Source: Maridesulfovibrio sp. (GTDB taxonomy: Bacteria; Desulfobacterota; Desulfovibrionia; Desulfovibrionales; Desulfovibrionaceae). From it: a DNA stretch of 64,000 nt. Below are positions 40,916-47,015 of this stretch, one piece after another; position 1 is the first letter of the stretch, and every line of letters starts with the position of its first letter. The position numbers were made by a program, and so were the translations under genes. The stretch covers positions 434,001 to 498,000 of the forward strand of contig NZ_OY763932.1 of NCBI RefSeq assembly GCF_963667685.1, in the 5' to 3' direction. A model generated the notes under the pieces. It saw nothing but the letters and a program-made list of their open reading frames with translations, was not told where the DNA came from and ran no database searches.

Positions 40916-40958
40916 ACAACCGGGGACCATGCTCAGCAGGGTCCCCGGTTTTAATTTT
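40916..40958. terminator. Terminator shared by small gene and MoSto-like gene
   Basis: AACCGGGGACC and GGTCCCCGGTT form an 11-bp stem with an 11-base loop, followed on the plus strand by TTAATTTT. On the minus strand the trailing sequence is GTTCTAG, so it works mainly for the plus-strand gene. Confidence 0.85.
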
Positions 40959-41805
40959 ATTTATATACGATGGTTCCGACATGCTCTCCGCGCAATGCGG
41001 CATGAACACATTCGGGATCGTGCAATACATCAATAATCTGGAACTGCTTGAGTGTCTTGGCATTTTTTAGGAAGGTCAGGACTGCCCGTTCCACAATCAG
41101 ATCATCGAGATCCATTTCAATCAGTTCGTCCACATGGATGCGGTCATAGAACTTGAGGGTTTCGCGATCCTTGGCCTTTTTGGGGTCGTCCTCGTAAAGT
41201 CCTTTCTCATCTTTCAGATAAATAACTGACTTTGCACCGATGTTTTCTGCCAGCAGGAAAGCACCGGAGTCTGTACGGTGCGGCGGGATGGACCCGACTT
41301 CAGCGGGATGCTCGAAAAAACCGTAGGGCGGGATACCGGTGGTAATAGGCAGGTAGCCGAGCTGGCAGTACATATTAAGCTGCTCTAGATGCTCACCATG
41401 CCCGATCTTTACGCCGCCGTGCTTAGCCAAAAGTATGGAAAGCATTTCCGCATTCTGCCACGAAACCTTATCGCCTAACTTTGAAAGAACCCCGGTAGGC
41501 ATGCCGAGGTCAATGCCAATGTTGTAGACGTGACGGGCTCGGGTTCCGCCCCCGGTCATGAGCAGAATCTTGTGCTCTTCCTTGGCCTTGACCAGCTCAT
41601 CAAGGATGGGAAAAAGTGCTTTAGCACCGCGGTCCATGATGGACTGCCCACCGATTTTCAGCACATTAACTTCCGGCTGCATATGGAAATACTCGTCTGC
41701 TTCTGTATTACGCAAACAATCTTTCCCCACAAGGGATTCACCCAACAGTTTGGTTTCTATGTGCAGACGGCCCTTCTCACCATCTTCCTTAATCAACTTA
41801 CCCAT
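40957..41805 (-). CDS. Molybdenum storage protein-like (MoSto) amino-acid-kinase-fold protein
   Basis: 282 residues from the ATG behind GGAGGG; a longer upstream frame is unlikely. It is an amino-acid-kinase fold protein of the molybdenum-storage branch rather than UMP kinase: VNVLKIGGQSIMDRGAKALF, LLMTGGGTRARHVYNIGIDL, 'PPYGFFEHPAEVGSIPPHRT', DSGAFLLAENIGAKSVIYLK and DEKGLYEDDPKKAK. MoSto of Azotobacter packs polyoxomolybdate clusters inside an alpha3beta3 cage using ATP. Only one MoSto-type gene is present here, so a homohexamer would be needed. The MOT1-type transporter directly upstream supports a molybdenum role. Confidence 0.85.
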   Translation of the reverse strand: MGKLIKEDGEKGRLHIETKLLGESLVGKDCLRNTEADEYFHMQPEVNVLKIGGQSIMDRGAKALFPILDELVKAKEEHKILLMTGGGTRARHVYNIGIDLGMPTGVLSKLGDKVSWQNAEMLSILLAKHGGVKIGHGEHLEQLNMYCQLGYLPITTGIPPYGFFEHPAEVGSIPPHRTDSGAFLLAENIGAKSVIYLKDEKGLYEDDPKKAKDRETLKFYDRIHVDELIEMDLDDLIVERAVLTFLKNAKTLKQFQIIDVLHDPECVHAALRGEHVGTIVYK

Positions 41806-41880
41806 AAGACCCTCCGTTTTATCAAAATTGTCCCCCCCGTTGATTTGATAGGGGGAGACAAGATTATAAACCATTTCCTA

Positions 41881-43074
41881 CTATTGAAACACCTTAAATT
41901 TTATAAAAACCATACTCAACACAATCCCGGCCCCGAATGCCCATGCGAGATTGCTGATCAAAGTAACTACCAGCATGAGGACGATTACGGCCTGTGCGGG
42001 GCGTCCAGTTATATCGCGCGCAGCCATTATCAATTGCAGTCCGGCGAAAACAAGCAGCACACCGAGCACCCCCATAGGAATAAGTTGCAGAACTTTTACC
42101 GACTCTGGACCGAATCCAATTGCCAGCAGAACAAAAAGCACACCGATAATAATATTTGAACCGCAGGTGCGCGCTCCGAAACGGTAATGCGCAGCAAGCC
42201 CCCCCGCACCATGGCAAACCGGCATACCACCCACCATGGCAGCAAAGCCATTGGCAAGCCCCATGCTTATACACAAAGCCCGGTCTGTTACCCTGCGTCC
42301 TTCATCGCCGAAATATTCATAACTCAAGTCGCGGTTGGCAATAACGGCATTTCCAAGCGTCATTGGTATCTGGGGTAAAACAAGAGCCAGCAAGGCGAAT
42401 GAAAACTCCTCACCGGAAGGAAAACCAAAAGGAAACAACTGCGGCAGATGAAACCCCAGACTAAGATCAGCCAGCCCCCGCCATGCACCAAGAAAACCGC
42501 CGAGAATCGCCCCGAAACCGACAACTACAAGACCTGCCGGAACACGTTTACTGTTGATCAATTTAAGGGTGACTAATCCGAAAATTAAACCGAAGACCAG
42601 GCTGAGCGGAATCGGACCTAGTGCCTGATACGACAAAAAAGGCTCAACTTTGCCCAAAGTCTCCTGCAGACCGCTTGTGCCGGCCGCAAGATAAACCCCT
42701 TTAAGCAGAAGCAGTATTCCTGTCGAAACCTGCACGCCACGGATAACAGGCAATGGAATCAATCGGGAAGCCTTGTTGACCAATCCGCTTGCGCCAAGGA
42801 AAAACAGGAATACGGCGACAATCATCCCGGACGCGCTTATCACCGCCGGGCTTAGCGACTGGGCGATAGCATAAGCTGAAATCACTTTCATGGGCTGCAC
42901 CGCAATGGGAACCCGATAGTACATACCGCCTAAAAGATAGAAAACTCCTACTGTTAGAAACAGCCCTGTAGCGGAAAGCCCGTTAACAATTATCATGGCA
43001 AAAGCCAGAGGCAGCATGGCACCCAGATCACCGACAGAACCGGCCCATTCCATCCTGTTTAAACTTATACGCAC
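41881..43074 (-). CDS. MOT1-type molybdate/sulfate transporter
   Basis: 397 residues, ten or more helices, GTG start behind GAGGGA. MOT1/SulP-like signatures are visible: MEWAGSVGDLGAMLPLAF at the N-terminus (G-D-L-G-x-x-x-P) and VPIAVQPMKVISAYA (the PVQPMK-type motif), with a repeat of the inner motif around ALVLPQIPMTLGNAVIA. MOT1 proteins carry molybdate at high affinity in plants, algae and some bacteria. Immediately downstream on the same strand (75 bases) is the MoSto-like gene, so uptake and storage are probably co-expressed. Confidence 0.88.
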   Translation of the reverse strand: MRISLNRMEWAGSVGDLGAMLPLAFAMIIVNGLSATGLFLTVGVFYLLGGMYYRVPIAVQPMKVISAYAIAQSLSPAVISASGMIVAVFLFFLGASGLVNKASRLIPLPVIRGVQVSTGILLLLKGVYLAAGTSGLQETLGKVEPFLSYQALGPIPLSLVFGLIFGLVTLKLINSKRVPAGLVVVGFGAILGGFLGAWRGLADLSLGFHLPQLFPFGFPSGEEFSFALLALVLPQIPMTLGNAVIANRDLSYEYFGDEGRRVTDRALCISMGLANGFAAMVGGMPVCHGAGGLAAHYRFGARTCGSNIIIGVLFVLLAIGFGPESVKVLQLIPMGVLGVLLVFAGLQLIMAARDITGRPAQAVIVLMLVVTLISNLAWAFGAGIVLSMVFIKFKVFQ

Positions 43075-43367: not shown

Positions 43368-43643
43368 CTACCACGGCATCGGGTCGGGCAGGATTACGTC
43401 ATCGGAATAATCATACTGATCGAATTGCTCCGAAAACCAGTCGAAGAATTCAAAATAGGGAAAAATCTTTCGCCCGGCTTCCACCTTATCCAGGGCCTTC
43501 TCGCCGTCAATATCAATTGCCTTGGAATCAAGGGCCATGATGGGCACCAGATCCTGTGGGCAGACATAGGCAACATTACCCACAACATAGTAACGAATTT
43601 CGTACTTTTTATAGGTAACTTTTTTTACAACCGTTTTGCTCAT
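43368..43643 (-). CDS. Small hypothetical acidic protein
   Basis: 91 residues from the ATG preceded by GAGAGG. Starts MSKTVVKKVTYKKYEIRYYV and ends in an acidic, Asp/Tyr-rich tail with DQYDYSDDVILPDPMPW. No motif or homologue recognised. It has its own terminator downstream and follows methylglyoxal synthase on the same strand by 68 bases. Cytoplasmic by composition. Confidence 0.65.
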   Translation of the reverse strand: MSKTVVKKVTYKKYEIRYYVVGNVAYVCPQDLVPIMALDSKAIDIDGEKALDKVEAGRKIFPYFEFFDWFSEQFDQYDYSDDVILPDPMPW

Positions 43644-43711
43644 ACACACCTCTCACTTGATCTCTCAAAATTCAGCAGGTCATAAATCAAATGGAGACAC
43701 TGTTCAACAGC

Positions 43712-44185
43712 TTAAATTTTGCGCTGGATATAGTCCCTGAAATCAGTTTCCTTCCGTTGAAACTTCCCTTCAAAAAAAGGTGAAGAAATGAGGAATTCAG
43801 CGGTCGAACGGTTGCTGGCAGTCGGGATATTATATAGGACAGCCAGACGCAGCAGGGCTTTCACGTCAACATCATGCGGTTGCGGTTGCATGGGGTCCCA
43901 AAAAAAGATCAGCACATCAATTTTACCTTCGGAGATCATAGCCCCTAACTGCTGATCTCCACCCAGCGGACCGGATTTCAATTTGTTTACCGATTTGAAA
44001 TCATAACTATCATCATTCTTCTGGGTCACCCTTTCCTTGATCATTGCTTCTACCAGTCCCCCAGTGGTCCCGGTAGCCACAAGGTTATGTCTGGACAATA
44101 TCATATGGTTGCAGTCCACGAAGTCGAGCAATTCTTTTTTACAATTATCGTGTGCGACTACGGCTATATTTTTTACTATGCTCAT
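43712..44185 (-). CDS. mgsA: Methylglyoxal synthase
   Basis: 157 residues. The start is the ATG at 44185 with AAGAGG 9 bases upstream; the ATG nine bases earlier would place the ribosome site too close. Family motifs: IAVVAHDNCKKELLDFVD, ATGTTGGLVEAMI, LKSGPLGGDQQLGAMISEG, and FFWDPMQPQPHDVDVKALLR with the catalytic Asp/His region, ending with IPTASNRSTAEFLI. It converts dihydroxyacetone phosphate to methylglyoxal and phosphate, a bypass for excess triose phosphate. Confidence 0.96.
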   Translation of the reverse strand: MSIVKNIAVVAHDNCKKELLDFVDCNHMILSRHNLVATGTTGGLVEAMIKERVTQKNDDSYDFKSVNKLKSGPLGGDQQLGAMISEGKIDVLIFFWDPMQPQPHDVDVKALLRLAVLYNIPTASNRSTAEFLISSPFFEGKFQRKETDFRDYIQRKI

Positions 44186-44276
44186 GGCTGTCATCCTCTT
44201 GAAGTTAAAAGATAATCAATATTCAACACTATGCCATGAGCTAAAAAGAATGTCACTTCAGCAATGTTAAGAGTGT

Positions 44277-44311
44277 AAAAACAAAAAGGGCTGCCGAAAA
44301 TTCAGCAGCCC
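44277..44311 (-). terminator. Terminator after the selenocysteine ArsC/Spx gene
   Basis: GGGCTGC (44288-44294) and GCAGCCC (44305-44311) form a stem with a 10-base loop, followed on the minus strand by TTTTTGTTTTT. Confidence 0.85.
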
Positions 44312-44333
44312 GAAAAATTCATAGATCCGATCC

Positions 44334-44681
44334 TTAAAAATGCTCTTCCCACTCTTTAAGTTTGAAGCCGATAAGGACAAAGTTGTCTGCGACAAGAACT
44401 GGCCGCTTGCAAAGCATTCCGTCACCGGAAAGAAGCTCGAAAAGATCAGAGTCAGACATGGAGTCTATTGTTTCTTTCAGCCCCATTTCCTTATATTTTT
44501 TACCATTGGTATTAACAAACTTCTTTTTATCCACTCCGGAAATTTTCTGCCAGCTGAGAAATTCATCTTTTGTCGGGGTCTCTTTAACAATATGGCGGAT
44601 AGTGAAATCCACCCCTTTCTCTTCAAGCCAAGCCTTGGCTTTGCGGGAAGTGGTTCAGCTCGGATAATGCATTAGAATCAT
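44334..44681 (-). CDS. Selenocysteine-containing ArsC/Spx-family protein
   Basis: 115 codons if the in-frame TGA at 44655-44657 is read as selenocysteine. The frame starts at ATG 44681, with GGAGAA about 10 bases upstream. The text around TGA is M-I-L-M-H-Y-P-S-U-TTSRKAKAWLEEKG, which aligns with the 'YPxCSTCRKAKKWL' active site of ArsC/Spx proteins with Sec at the catalytic cysteine; the second CxxC position is Ser. The rest is a complete family domain (SGVDKKKFVNTNGKKYKEMG, CKRPVLVADNFVLIGFK). Total length is the family norm. Downstream of TGA, AAGCCAA-GGC-TTGGCTT forms a SECIS-like hairpin. Reading only from the next start would lose the active site. A thiol-dependent reductase or redox role is likely. 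Confidence 0.82.
44625..44641 (-). promoter_or_regulatory. Candidate bacterial SECIS element
   Basis: On the minus strand AAGCCAA-GGC-TTGGCTT makes a perfect 7-bp stem with a GGC loop. The stem begins 13 bases after the TGA and the loop lies about 20 bases after it. Bacterial SECIS elements are small hairpins in that distance range with a G among the first loop bases. Matches both requirements. Confidence 0.7.
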
Positions 44682-44787
44682 GTTTTTTATTCTCCGTCTT
44701 AAGATTGCGGACAATCCTGAATATTTTTCACATAGATATCATAAATAAGTACAAGCTACAAGCATAGACAAAAACAGCACAAAGAAA

Positions 44788-44817
44788 AAGGCCCCCATGA
44801 AACCCATGGGGACCTTT
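44788..44817 (-). terminator. Terminator after chemoreceptor gene
   Basis: AAAGGNCCCCATG and CATGGGGNCCTTT pair around a short loop, followed on the minus strand by TTTCTTTG. It lies 25 bases past the MCP stop. Confidence 0.85.
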
Positions 44818-44841
44818 CCGCTTTTATAAGGGGATAATTAT

Positions 44842-46854
44842 TTAAAACTTTTCAAAATCACTGTCATCGGCTTCCATATCCAGTGAGAGTCCGCCGAAAC
44901 CGGACTCGGCTTTCGATCCAGTTGCTGGCGTCTGCCGTGATTTCGGGCGCGCCGGAGCTGCAGTAGGAACGTGTGCTGGTTCTGCATGTCTTGCAGTGCT
45001 CACCGGTAAAGCTCTAGGCTGTGCATAGGAGGAGTGACCATAGCCGCCAACCTTGAAAAAGGACATGGTGTTTTCAAGCATGGCACTCTGCGAGGATAGC
45101 TGTTCACTGGTAGACGCCATCTCTTCCGATGCAGAAGCATTCTGTTGAATAACAGAATCAAGTTGGGAAATAGCCTTGCTGATCTGCCCTGCTCCTGTGT
45201 TCTGCTCCGCACTGGCGGAAGAGATTTCCTGAACCAGCTCTGCGGTCTTCTGAATATTTGGGACAAGGTTTTCAAGCATTTCCCCTGCCTTCTCCGCAAC
45301 TGTCACGGTTGAGGAAGAAAGCTCACTGATTTCCCCGGCGGCATTACCACTGCGCTCGGCCAACTTGCGGACCTCGGCGGCAACAACGGCAAATCCCTTA
45401 CCATGTTCTCCGGCGCGGGCCGCTTCAATTGCTGCGTTCAAAGCCAGCAGATTGGTCTGGCGGGCAATTTCTTCGATAATGGAAATCTTTTCAGCAATAT
45501 TCTTCATAGCCGCTACAGCTTCAGAAACAGCGGAACCGCTTTCCTGGGCATCTGCAGCAGACTTGAGAGCAATCTCCTCAGTGGTCTGCGCGTTAAGAGT
45601 ATTCTGCTTAATGTTGCTGGCCATCTCCTCAATGGATGCGGAAACTTCTTCAATAGAAGCGGCCTGTTCTGTAGCTCCCTGGGAAAGGCCTTCGGCAGAA
45701 GCTGAAAGCTCGGTGCTGCCGGAAGCCACATTGCTTGCCCCTGCGCGCACGTCTGAGACAACCCTTGTAAGCTGGGCCGCCATTTCACGCATATTTCCGT
45801 AAACACCTATGGCTGGTTCATTAAATTTAAGATCTAGATCACCGCCTGCAATACTCTGGGCAACATGGGCAATGTCCGCGGGGTCACTTCCGAGCTGCCT
45901 GCTGATGGTTCTGATGATCAGAATAGCCGTAATAATACCCACCGCAATAGCAATAATGCTGATAACTATCGCCAGCATTACCGCCTGGCTGTTAGCTGCT
46001 TGAAGTTTCGGACCAAGGGCTTCCTGCTCCGTCATGACTGAAAGTTTAACTTCCTCGACATTGTTAGCGATATTCGGTCCAAGTATGTCCAGATGATTCT
46101 GCGTGATATCATTGCGATTGCTGACGACTTTCGTCAGTTTGACAAAAGTTGATGCATACTTTTCCTCAAGCTCTATTATTTCCGCAAGCAATCTGCGCCG
46201 CCCCGGATTTTGCAGACCGCGGTCAAGATCGCCGAGCATCTTTTTCAATTCATCCATTTCGACTCCAACCCGTTCTATATGCTCTTTGGCATTATTCTCC
46301 ATAAATTTCAGGACGTACAAACGGGCCAACAGCAGGTTACGCATAGCATGTCCGGCTTTTACCGCCGCAATCATATCATTATCTTGTTCAGCTGTTTCGA
46401 GAATCCGGGTCAGCTTCTTTTCCATAAGCGGTCCAGCTACATTGAGCACATTTTTGAAATAACCATCCCGCTCTGCGCGTAACTTCTTAATCTTTTCGAA
46501 ATATTCACCATAAGATTTTATATCATTATTCACTTTCGCAATAAGACTGGCACGTTCAGGTGACTTGATTTCTGCAAGAGCTTCATTAATGAATTCAGTC
46601 ATTTTAGCAAAATACTCATCATAATGCTTAATATCAGCATCGCTTCCAGTAAGGATAAAATCCTTAACATTCATACGCACCATGAGCATATTTGCCTGTA
46701 GATTTCCACTGAGATTGGTATCTATTGCCAACCCCCTGTAATCTTTGAACCCCTCACTGGAATTTCCAAGAGCCCAAAAGGAGATTGCCGCCAACAAAAG
46801 CAGTAAGCCCAGAACAGAACCGAACCCGAGCATCAATTTAGCCGATAATTTCAT
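44842..46854 (-). CDS. Methyl-accepting chemotaxis protein, helical-bundle sensor type
   Basis: 670 residues from the ATG preceded by GGGGGAAA; an upstream ATG adds an unsupported tail. TM1 ~8-28 and TM2 ~300-325 bracket a four-helix-bundle-like sensor ([20 protein letters not shown]), which shares its 'YRGLA...TNLSG' region with the chemoreceptor at 30175. After HAMP the signalling hairpin has the tip '[20 protein letters not shown]' followed by [19 protein letters not shown], a different class from the other three receptors here (which have [13 protein letters not shown]). The C-terminus is long and Pro/Ala-rich, ending in an acidic segment. Confidence 0.94.
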
Positions 46855-47015
46855 ATTTCCCCCCAATAAGCAGTTTTTCTCCAGCCAGTAAACATAGCCG
46901 AGTATGACACTAGAACCCTTAGCGTACACTACTCTGATACTTTATTTAAGATAAAAAATGCATTGAACTGAAGAAAGACGAGTAAATTTGCAAGAAATTG
47001 AAATTCTCCAATATA

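Follow-up and report, generated by a model that had tools for sequence, protein, structure and literature searches.

The subject of this analysis is a small gene of the ArsC/Spx fold, predicted to encode a selenoprotein, in a Maridesulfovibrio sp. (Desulfovibrionaceae). It lies on the minus strand of a 64,000-nucleotide stretch of DNA (contig NZ_OY763932.1, positions 434,001 to 498,000, assembly GCF_963667685.1), referred to here as the window, and positions are those of the window unless a contig is named. In motifs, U denotes selenocysteine (Sec). The features on which the argument rests are as follows.

44334..44681, minus strand: gene for a putative ArsC-like selenoprotein of 115 amino acids with Sec as residue 9, from ATG at 44681 to TAA at 44334

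44655..44657, minus strand: in-frame TGA at the active-site position (U9), with TGA in 16/17 and TGT in 1/17 carrier genomes of the order

44625..44641, minus strand: hairpin AAGCCAA-GGC-UUGGCUU, resembling a bacterial Sec insertion sequence (bSECIS), with a core conserved in 16 Sec rows

The frame from 44681 to 44334 runs from ATG to TAA, specifies 115 residues of the ArsC/Spx fold and contains one in-frame TGA. This triplet (44657-44655) is codon 9, in the context YPS-U-TTSRKAKAWLEEK, and aligns with the catalytic Cys of homologues, exactly where the original prediction, made from the sequence alone, had placed a minus-strand read-through of TGA. The same prediction had the second Cys of the motif replaced by Ser, and residue 12 of the protein, at +3 from U9, is indeed Ser. 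A six-frame search returned the frame as a Pfam ArsC match above cut-off; the protein scored 59.9 bits against the ArsC fold model PF03960 (gathering score 24) and 100 bits against TIGR01617 arsC_related (curated cut-off 75.05), both above threshold. In the predicted structure, U9 is located between the first strand (residues 2-5) and the first helix (10-21). Residues K92-R93-P94 are invariant across 19 aligned rows. A mechanical open reading frame (ORF) call yielded only 92 residues, from GTG at 44612 to 44334, with a start downstream of the active site, as had been anticipated for a domain translated without Sec. The gene is an example of truncation by gene finders that use standard stops.

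The distribution of the gene was established by searching 348 genomes from the order, and 17 proved to be carriers (match at E 1e-5 or better). These carriers span 3 of 59 genera: 11 belong to the genus of the window (its own genome included), five to genus g37 and one to genus g32. The active-site codon is TGA in 16 of them and TGT in one, genome G271. Seventeen distinct coding sequences were obtained, 16 with TGA, and all counts of Sec rows refer to these 16. A separate contig search retrieved four TGA records from Desulfovibrionaceae (L002-L005) and two CxxC homologues; the coding sequences of the four records are identical to those of four genome rows, and each pair was counted once. Two other contig matches (L008 and L009) were dropped as a different protein with a short common stretch, and second, partial copies in G313 and G303 (L043-L045) were left out as rows. 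When 395 genomes of the phylum were searched with a family profile at E 1e-10, three matched: the own genome, G600 and G389, the last two without a stop.

Translation appears to continue through the TGA. The four codons before it (HYPS, residues 5-8) are invariant in amino acid among the 16 TGA rows, and synonymous differences occur there in 40-64% of row pairs; the codons after the TGA behave similarly. The sequence GGAG precedes the upstream start in 17/17 distinct rows, including four that have no ATG at the start position of the window gene and have one two codons further up instead. Given this synonymous drift and the GGAG before the start, the segments before and after the TGA appear to belong to one protein. 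The 92-residue ORF found mechanically would allow another arrangement, in which translation begins at GTG 44612 and gives a protein without the active site, the TGA being untranslated or the stop of a tiny leader. Such a protein would lack the first strand and first helix of the predicted structure, and conservation of residues 5-8 and of the TGA position, with synonymous drift upstream of it, is at odds with this arrangement, which we regard as highly improbable.

The frame downstream of the TGA is intact in 16/16 TGA carriers and shows synonymous change along its length. This bears on the proposal that a formerly Cys-coding gene acquired the TGA as a nonsense mutation and that its remainder is decaying. 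Such decay does occur: G313 holds a second copy (C1:2536354-2536577; L043 and L045) that is split over two frames, with one TGA in its first part, and that shows how decay of this gene appears. Furthermore, no ArsC match was found in 6 of the 16 other genomes of the genus. Against these points, recurrence of the same TGA in 16 genomes of three genera, ahead of an intact frame, is not a pattern of decay, and a pseudogene is extremely unlikely. The decay in relatives against which the original prediction had warned was not seen in the carriers, among which one has TGT, and sequencing error is not a plausible cause of a TGA that 16 genomes have in common. A second copy of the start of the gene in G303 (C315:1-123; L044), cut off at the contig end, matches the main copy in its residues as far as it extends and may be an assembly duplicate.

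The hairpin that follows the UGA has a 7-bp stem beginning at a distance of 13 nt and a GGC loop at 20 nt. The hairpin had been proposed at this place and with this stem and loop; the "about 20 bases" given for its position correspond to the loop. Its geometry fits the bSECIS model in the available part of the text of PMC13188914, in which the energy limit is at most -7.5 kcal/mol. The core GCCAAGGYUUGGCU (Y being C or U) is common to the 16 distinct Sec rows; no variation occurs in the five inner pairs, whereas the two outer pairs are broken in 2 and 4 rows. On a tree built without codons 9-22, no third-position change was counted for codons 15, 16 and 17 (GCC AAG GYT) in these rows, the mean per codon being 4.6. 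Codon 17 alternates between Ala and Val (GCT/GTT) with a constant final T, and codon 18, being Trp, is uninformative for this test. The conservation of the TGA, the flanking frame and the hairpin nucleotides in 16 distinct TGA rows is not attributable to chance. The minimum free energy (MFE) of the window gene is -7.4 kcal/mol for a 30-nt stretch with the hairpin and -13.1 kcal/mol for the 45 nt after the UGA; for the latter length, values of -9.3 to -15.6 kcal/mol were obtained across the 16 Sec rows. An Rfam search of 43500-45500 gave two matches, both below gathering scores, one at 44777-44819, overlapping a terminator-like hairpin upstream of the gene, and one inside the gene at 44448-44519.

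The genome of the window has the gene content to make selenocysteine. All four genes whose presence the original prediction had suggested checking were found above cut-off: selA (611 bits, C2:382678-384045) directly upstream of selB (390 bits, C2:385644-387533), tRNA-Sec, the product of selC (82.5 bits, C2:911456-911545), and selD (335 bits, C1:2122201-2123124). The selD gene (L048 1501-2424) itself has one in-frame TGA, followed by a strong hairpin (-24 kcal/mol in 48 nt). SelB was above cut-off in 21 of 22 genomes checked, comprising 15/16 carriers and 6/6 non-carriers, and tRNA-Sec was present in 10/10. The modest energy of the isolated hairpin could be taken to favor near-cognate read-through of the UGA, for example as Trp or Cys, over Sec insertion. 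The complete Sec machinery, the alignment of the TGA with the Cys of homologues, and nucleotide-level constraint exactly where a SECIS element is expected all oppose this possibility, to which we give hardly any weight.

Several results weigh against a selenoprotein gene with a bSECIS element. Among the 16 TGA rows there was no compensatory change, with no pair altered on both sides; covariation is precluded by the invariance of the stem core, and the helix is therefore backed by constraint and geometry rather than by covariation. The single-sequence fold had a z-score of only -0.47, and an equally good or better fold was obtained for 56 of 200 shuffles. The 30-nt MFE values of the 16 Sec rows (-5.2 to -7.4 kcal/mol) fall short of -7.5, and the 45-nt fold of row L037 is built from other pairs; the lowest 45-nt value of all, -16.9 kcal/mol, belongs to the row with TGT. 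One carrier, G236, a draft assembly of ∼430 contigs, has tRNA-Sec but no SelB match above cut-off, those obtained being partial and of lower score. The mean predicted local distance difference test (pLDDT) score was only 62-67 in four of five AlphaFold models, and the scan that detected terminator-like sites around the gene found no promoter-like site upstream of it. As evidence in its own right, the hairpin was rejected as weak: in addition to the low z-score, among the 2557 TGA triplets that the window has on its two strands, that of the gene included, 24 are followed by a Watson-Crick stem of at least 7 bp with the same geometry, rising to 142 of 2557 with G-U pairs allowed. The hairpin has its conservation in 16 TGA rows and its fitting geometry in its favor; by itself, however, the structure is not significant, and it loses its outer pairs in some rows. 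In combination, the comparative data strongly support selenocysteine with a bacterial SECIS element at this gene. The observation on which the original prediction was built is confirmed and its selenoprotein interpretation supported. We put the probability at roughly 93% that a small thioredoxin-fold selenoprotein of the ArsC-related (TIGR01617) group is encoded here by a functional gene, probably a monocistronic one, with decoding by SelB and a monoselenol mechanism included in this reading.

The proposed sequence of events is as follows. SelB with Sec-tRNA would decode UGA 44657-44655 as Sec, guided by the hairpin at 44641-44625, a role suggested by the conservation of the latter. The protein would then act as a monoselenol oxidoreductase of the UxxS/UxxA type, with U9, just ahead of the first helix, attacking a disulfide or an oxidized small substrate, and an external thiol or a protein of the thioredoxin type would release the selenenyl intermediate. 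At +3, 11 of the 16 distinct Sec rows have Ser and five have Ala, and in 12 of the 16 Sec is the only Cys/Sec residue. With no second Cys in the motif, and with Cys absent altogether from most relatives, release from outside would be needed, and the Sec is probably resolved by an external thiol. A Sec-only mechanism, as originally implied, is in keeping with the 12 Cys-free rows, but the window protein also holds C91.

Glutaredoxin-linked canonical arsenate reductases have the active-site motif HX3CX3R. Residues H5, U9 and R13 of the window protein fit this spacing with U in place of C; R13 is Lys in row L004. Arsenate is a possible but not favored substrate, since the protein scored 51 bits against TIGR00014 arsenate reductase (glutaredoxin), about half of the cut-off of 106.05, and none of the nine neighboring window proteins had a Pfam match pointing to arsenic.

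A different role is conceivable on the basis of the common fold: that of an Spx-like regulator binding RNA polymerase, in which the lone Sec stands in for the CxxC switch and conveys thiol or selenium status to the polymerase, the protein not being an enzyme. Spx regulators use a CxxC disulfide as redox switch. No such disulfide is possible in the UxxS and UxxA rows, and the window protein scored far too low with each of the Spx models: 58.8 bits with PRK01655 (cut-off 123), 54.3 with PRK12559 (cut-off 159) and 37.7 with PRK13344 (cut-off 152). Moreover, the non-Spx ArsC-related proteins 3gkx (Bacteroides fragilis), 2m46 (Staphylococcus aureus) and 3fz4 (Streptococcus mutans) match better in both sequence and structure. 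A regulator of this type is therefore unlikely. More likely than an Spx-like switch is a subfamily of the ArsC fold that acquired Sec dependence independently, with every Cys lost from most of its members and with one or more returns from Sec to Cys.

Arsenate reductase selenoproteins with a UxxS motif (COG1393/TIGR00014), from the Sargasso Sea and Global Ocean Sampling (GOS) surveys, are described in the available parts of PMC1088965, PMC2398784 and PMC13188914; like the window protein, they are ArsC family members with Sec and with Ser at +3. The 2026 catalogue of prokaryotic selenoproteins comprises, in its available text, this arsenate reductase (TIGR00014, UxxS) and an arsenate reductase-like protein (NF041106, UxxC); the terms TIGR01617, PF03960 and cd03036 are absent from that text (PMC13188914). 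NF041106 ArsC_rel_Se_1 has Sec at the same place as the window protein, which scored 24.8 bits against its cut-off of 85 and has UxxS/UxxA rather than UxxC. The original remark that ArsC-like selenoproteins feature in marine surveys is thus upheld by the UxxS arsenate reductase in print (PMC1088965, as far as available), but the window protein falls below both catalogued ArsC models. In the available tables of PMC1794560, ArsC-like selenoproteins are given for Desulfotalea psychrophila and Desulfuromonas acetoxidans, under Deltaproteobacteria, and none for Desulfovibrio vulgaris or D. desulfuricans. No description of an ArsC-like selenoprotein of Desulfovibrionaceae was found in the titles and passages covered by the literature search, and such a protein may well be listed elsewhere.

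Among 395 genomes drawn from the phylum, 30 had an ArsC match, at 33 places in all. Besides the window gene, 10 of these places have one internal TGA, and in an 11th, L063, the TGA lies just before the matched part. Rows L063, L064, L066, L067 and L069-L073 are of the UxxC type with TGA at the active site, possibly representing further uncatalogued Sec subfamilies; they have the fold family and Sec position in common with the window gene and differ from its clade in motif and, L063 not being in the tree, in their separate position there. Rows L077 and L078 (G582 and G658) are canonical-type ArsC sequences (HNPSUGKSR; UxxS, arsenate reductase-like) with an in-frame TGA and are located elsewhere in the tree than the window clade. 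Other TGA rows also miss the cut-offs (L077, 99.8 versus 106; L066 and L064, 39.4 and 26.6 versus 85), and L066 passes TIGR01617 (80 versus 75.05). For this reason, the cut-offs alone do not make the window gene a family of its own, and the tree is the better argument.

In the protein tree of 44 rows, the window clade joins the CxxC homologues L006, L007 and L059, apart from the other TGA-bearing ArsC rows of the phylum. Together with 3gkx, 3fz4 and 2m46, these homologues are closest to the window protein in sequence and structure; they have Cys at the Sec position and another Cys at +3, where the window clade has Ser or Ala. The Sec label needs at least seven changes on this tree, four of them forced by well-supported branches, and gains and losses of Sec are indistinguishable by that count. 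The tree carries a long-branch warning and is midpoint-rooted, and 9 of its 41 inner branches are open; L062 (wrong frame taken) and the partial L063, L082 and L083 were left out. Given that the window clade joins CxxC homologues, Sec in this clade probably arose separately, together with loss of the second Cys, a reading subject to the midpoint root and several long branches.

The exceptional row with TGT, L034 from G271, has Ser at +3 and is therefore CxxS. Its gene neighborhood is that of most copies in the genus, and SelB and tRNA-Sec are still present in the genome. In the protein tree, which includes the CxxC homologues, it is placed among Sec rows on a long end branch (0.3). Over codons 15-17 the sole difference is GCT to GCC, by which the A-U pair closing the GGC loop becomes A-C. 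The position of this single Cys row among Sec rows suggests a reversal, and G271 looks like a one-base Sec-to-Cys change with the SECIS constraint eased afterwards, although a single row is no proof. Other results detract from this account: support for the placement is weak (83/64); the Sec rows that L034 joins differ between the protein tree and a coding-sequence tree built without outgroup, in the latter of which it groups with L037 and L005; and it keeps a 6-bp hairpin at the same place, with the lowest 45-nt MFE of the set (-16.9 kcal/mol). Overall, the window lineage probably descends from CxxC homologues, with at least one descendant having gone back from Sec to Cys.

The surroundings of the gene contain the following features, the two neighboring genes being given for context only.

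44278..44311, minus strand: intrinsic-terminator-like site downstream of the gene, a 10-pair stem (44311-44288) followed by a T run

44785..44819, minus strand: terminator-like hairpin after the upstream chemotaxis-receptor gene

43712..44194, minus strand: MGS-like domain protein (methylglyoxal synthase-like), downstream neighbor

44842..46929, minus strand: methyl-accepting chemotaxis protein, upstream neighbor

The terminator-like sites on both sides suggest that the Sec gene is transcribed alone. Neighborhoods were compared over the 18-kb surroundings of carriers, the adjacent ORFs of ten loci being read by eye. An MGS-like gene was present within 3 kb in 8 of 10 same-genus carriers (own excluded), and the remaining two share other neighbors; the six carriers of g37 and g32, two on short contigs, have no convincing shared neighbors. 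As the surroundings differ between genera, neighbors were rejected as a clue to function. At 40957-43074 of the window, an AA_kinase-fold protein adjoins a MOT1-type molybdate transporter (PF16983), and both genes are near the Sec gene in 9 of 10 same-genus carriers. They look like a pair for molybdenum uptake and, presumably, storage. A conserved 93-residue protein beside the MGS-like gene (43368-43649), with no Pfam match at 1e-5, occurs in 10 of 10 same-genus carriers. Two plus-strand antisense ORFs, 44340-44675 and 44362-44667, were interpreted, without proof, as side effects of the coding strand. Most rows have long antisense frames; the frame of 44340-44675 has six stops in the Cys row, and that of 44362-44667 is largely open in all rows.

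ArsC-fold selenoproteins are already known, and the window gene probably adds a Sec branch of separate origin. The outcome is a convincing gene-finding result with unsurprising biology, in which the points for the specialist are a Cys-free selenoprotein and a likely reversal. The series of CxxC homologues, UxxS and UxxA forms and one CxxS revertant provides a natural set in which to study the retention and loss of Sec, as well as enzyme function with a selenol as the sole chalcogen.
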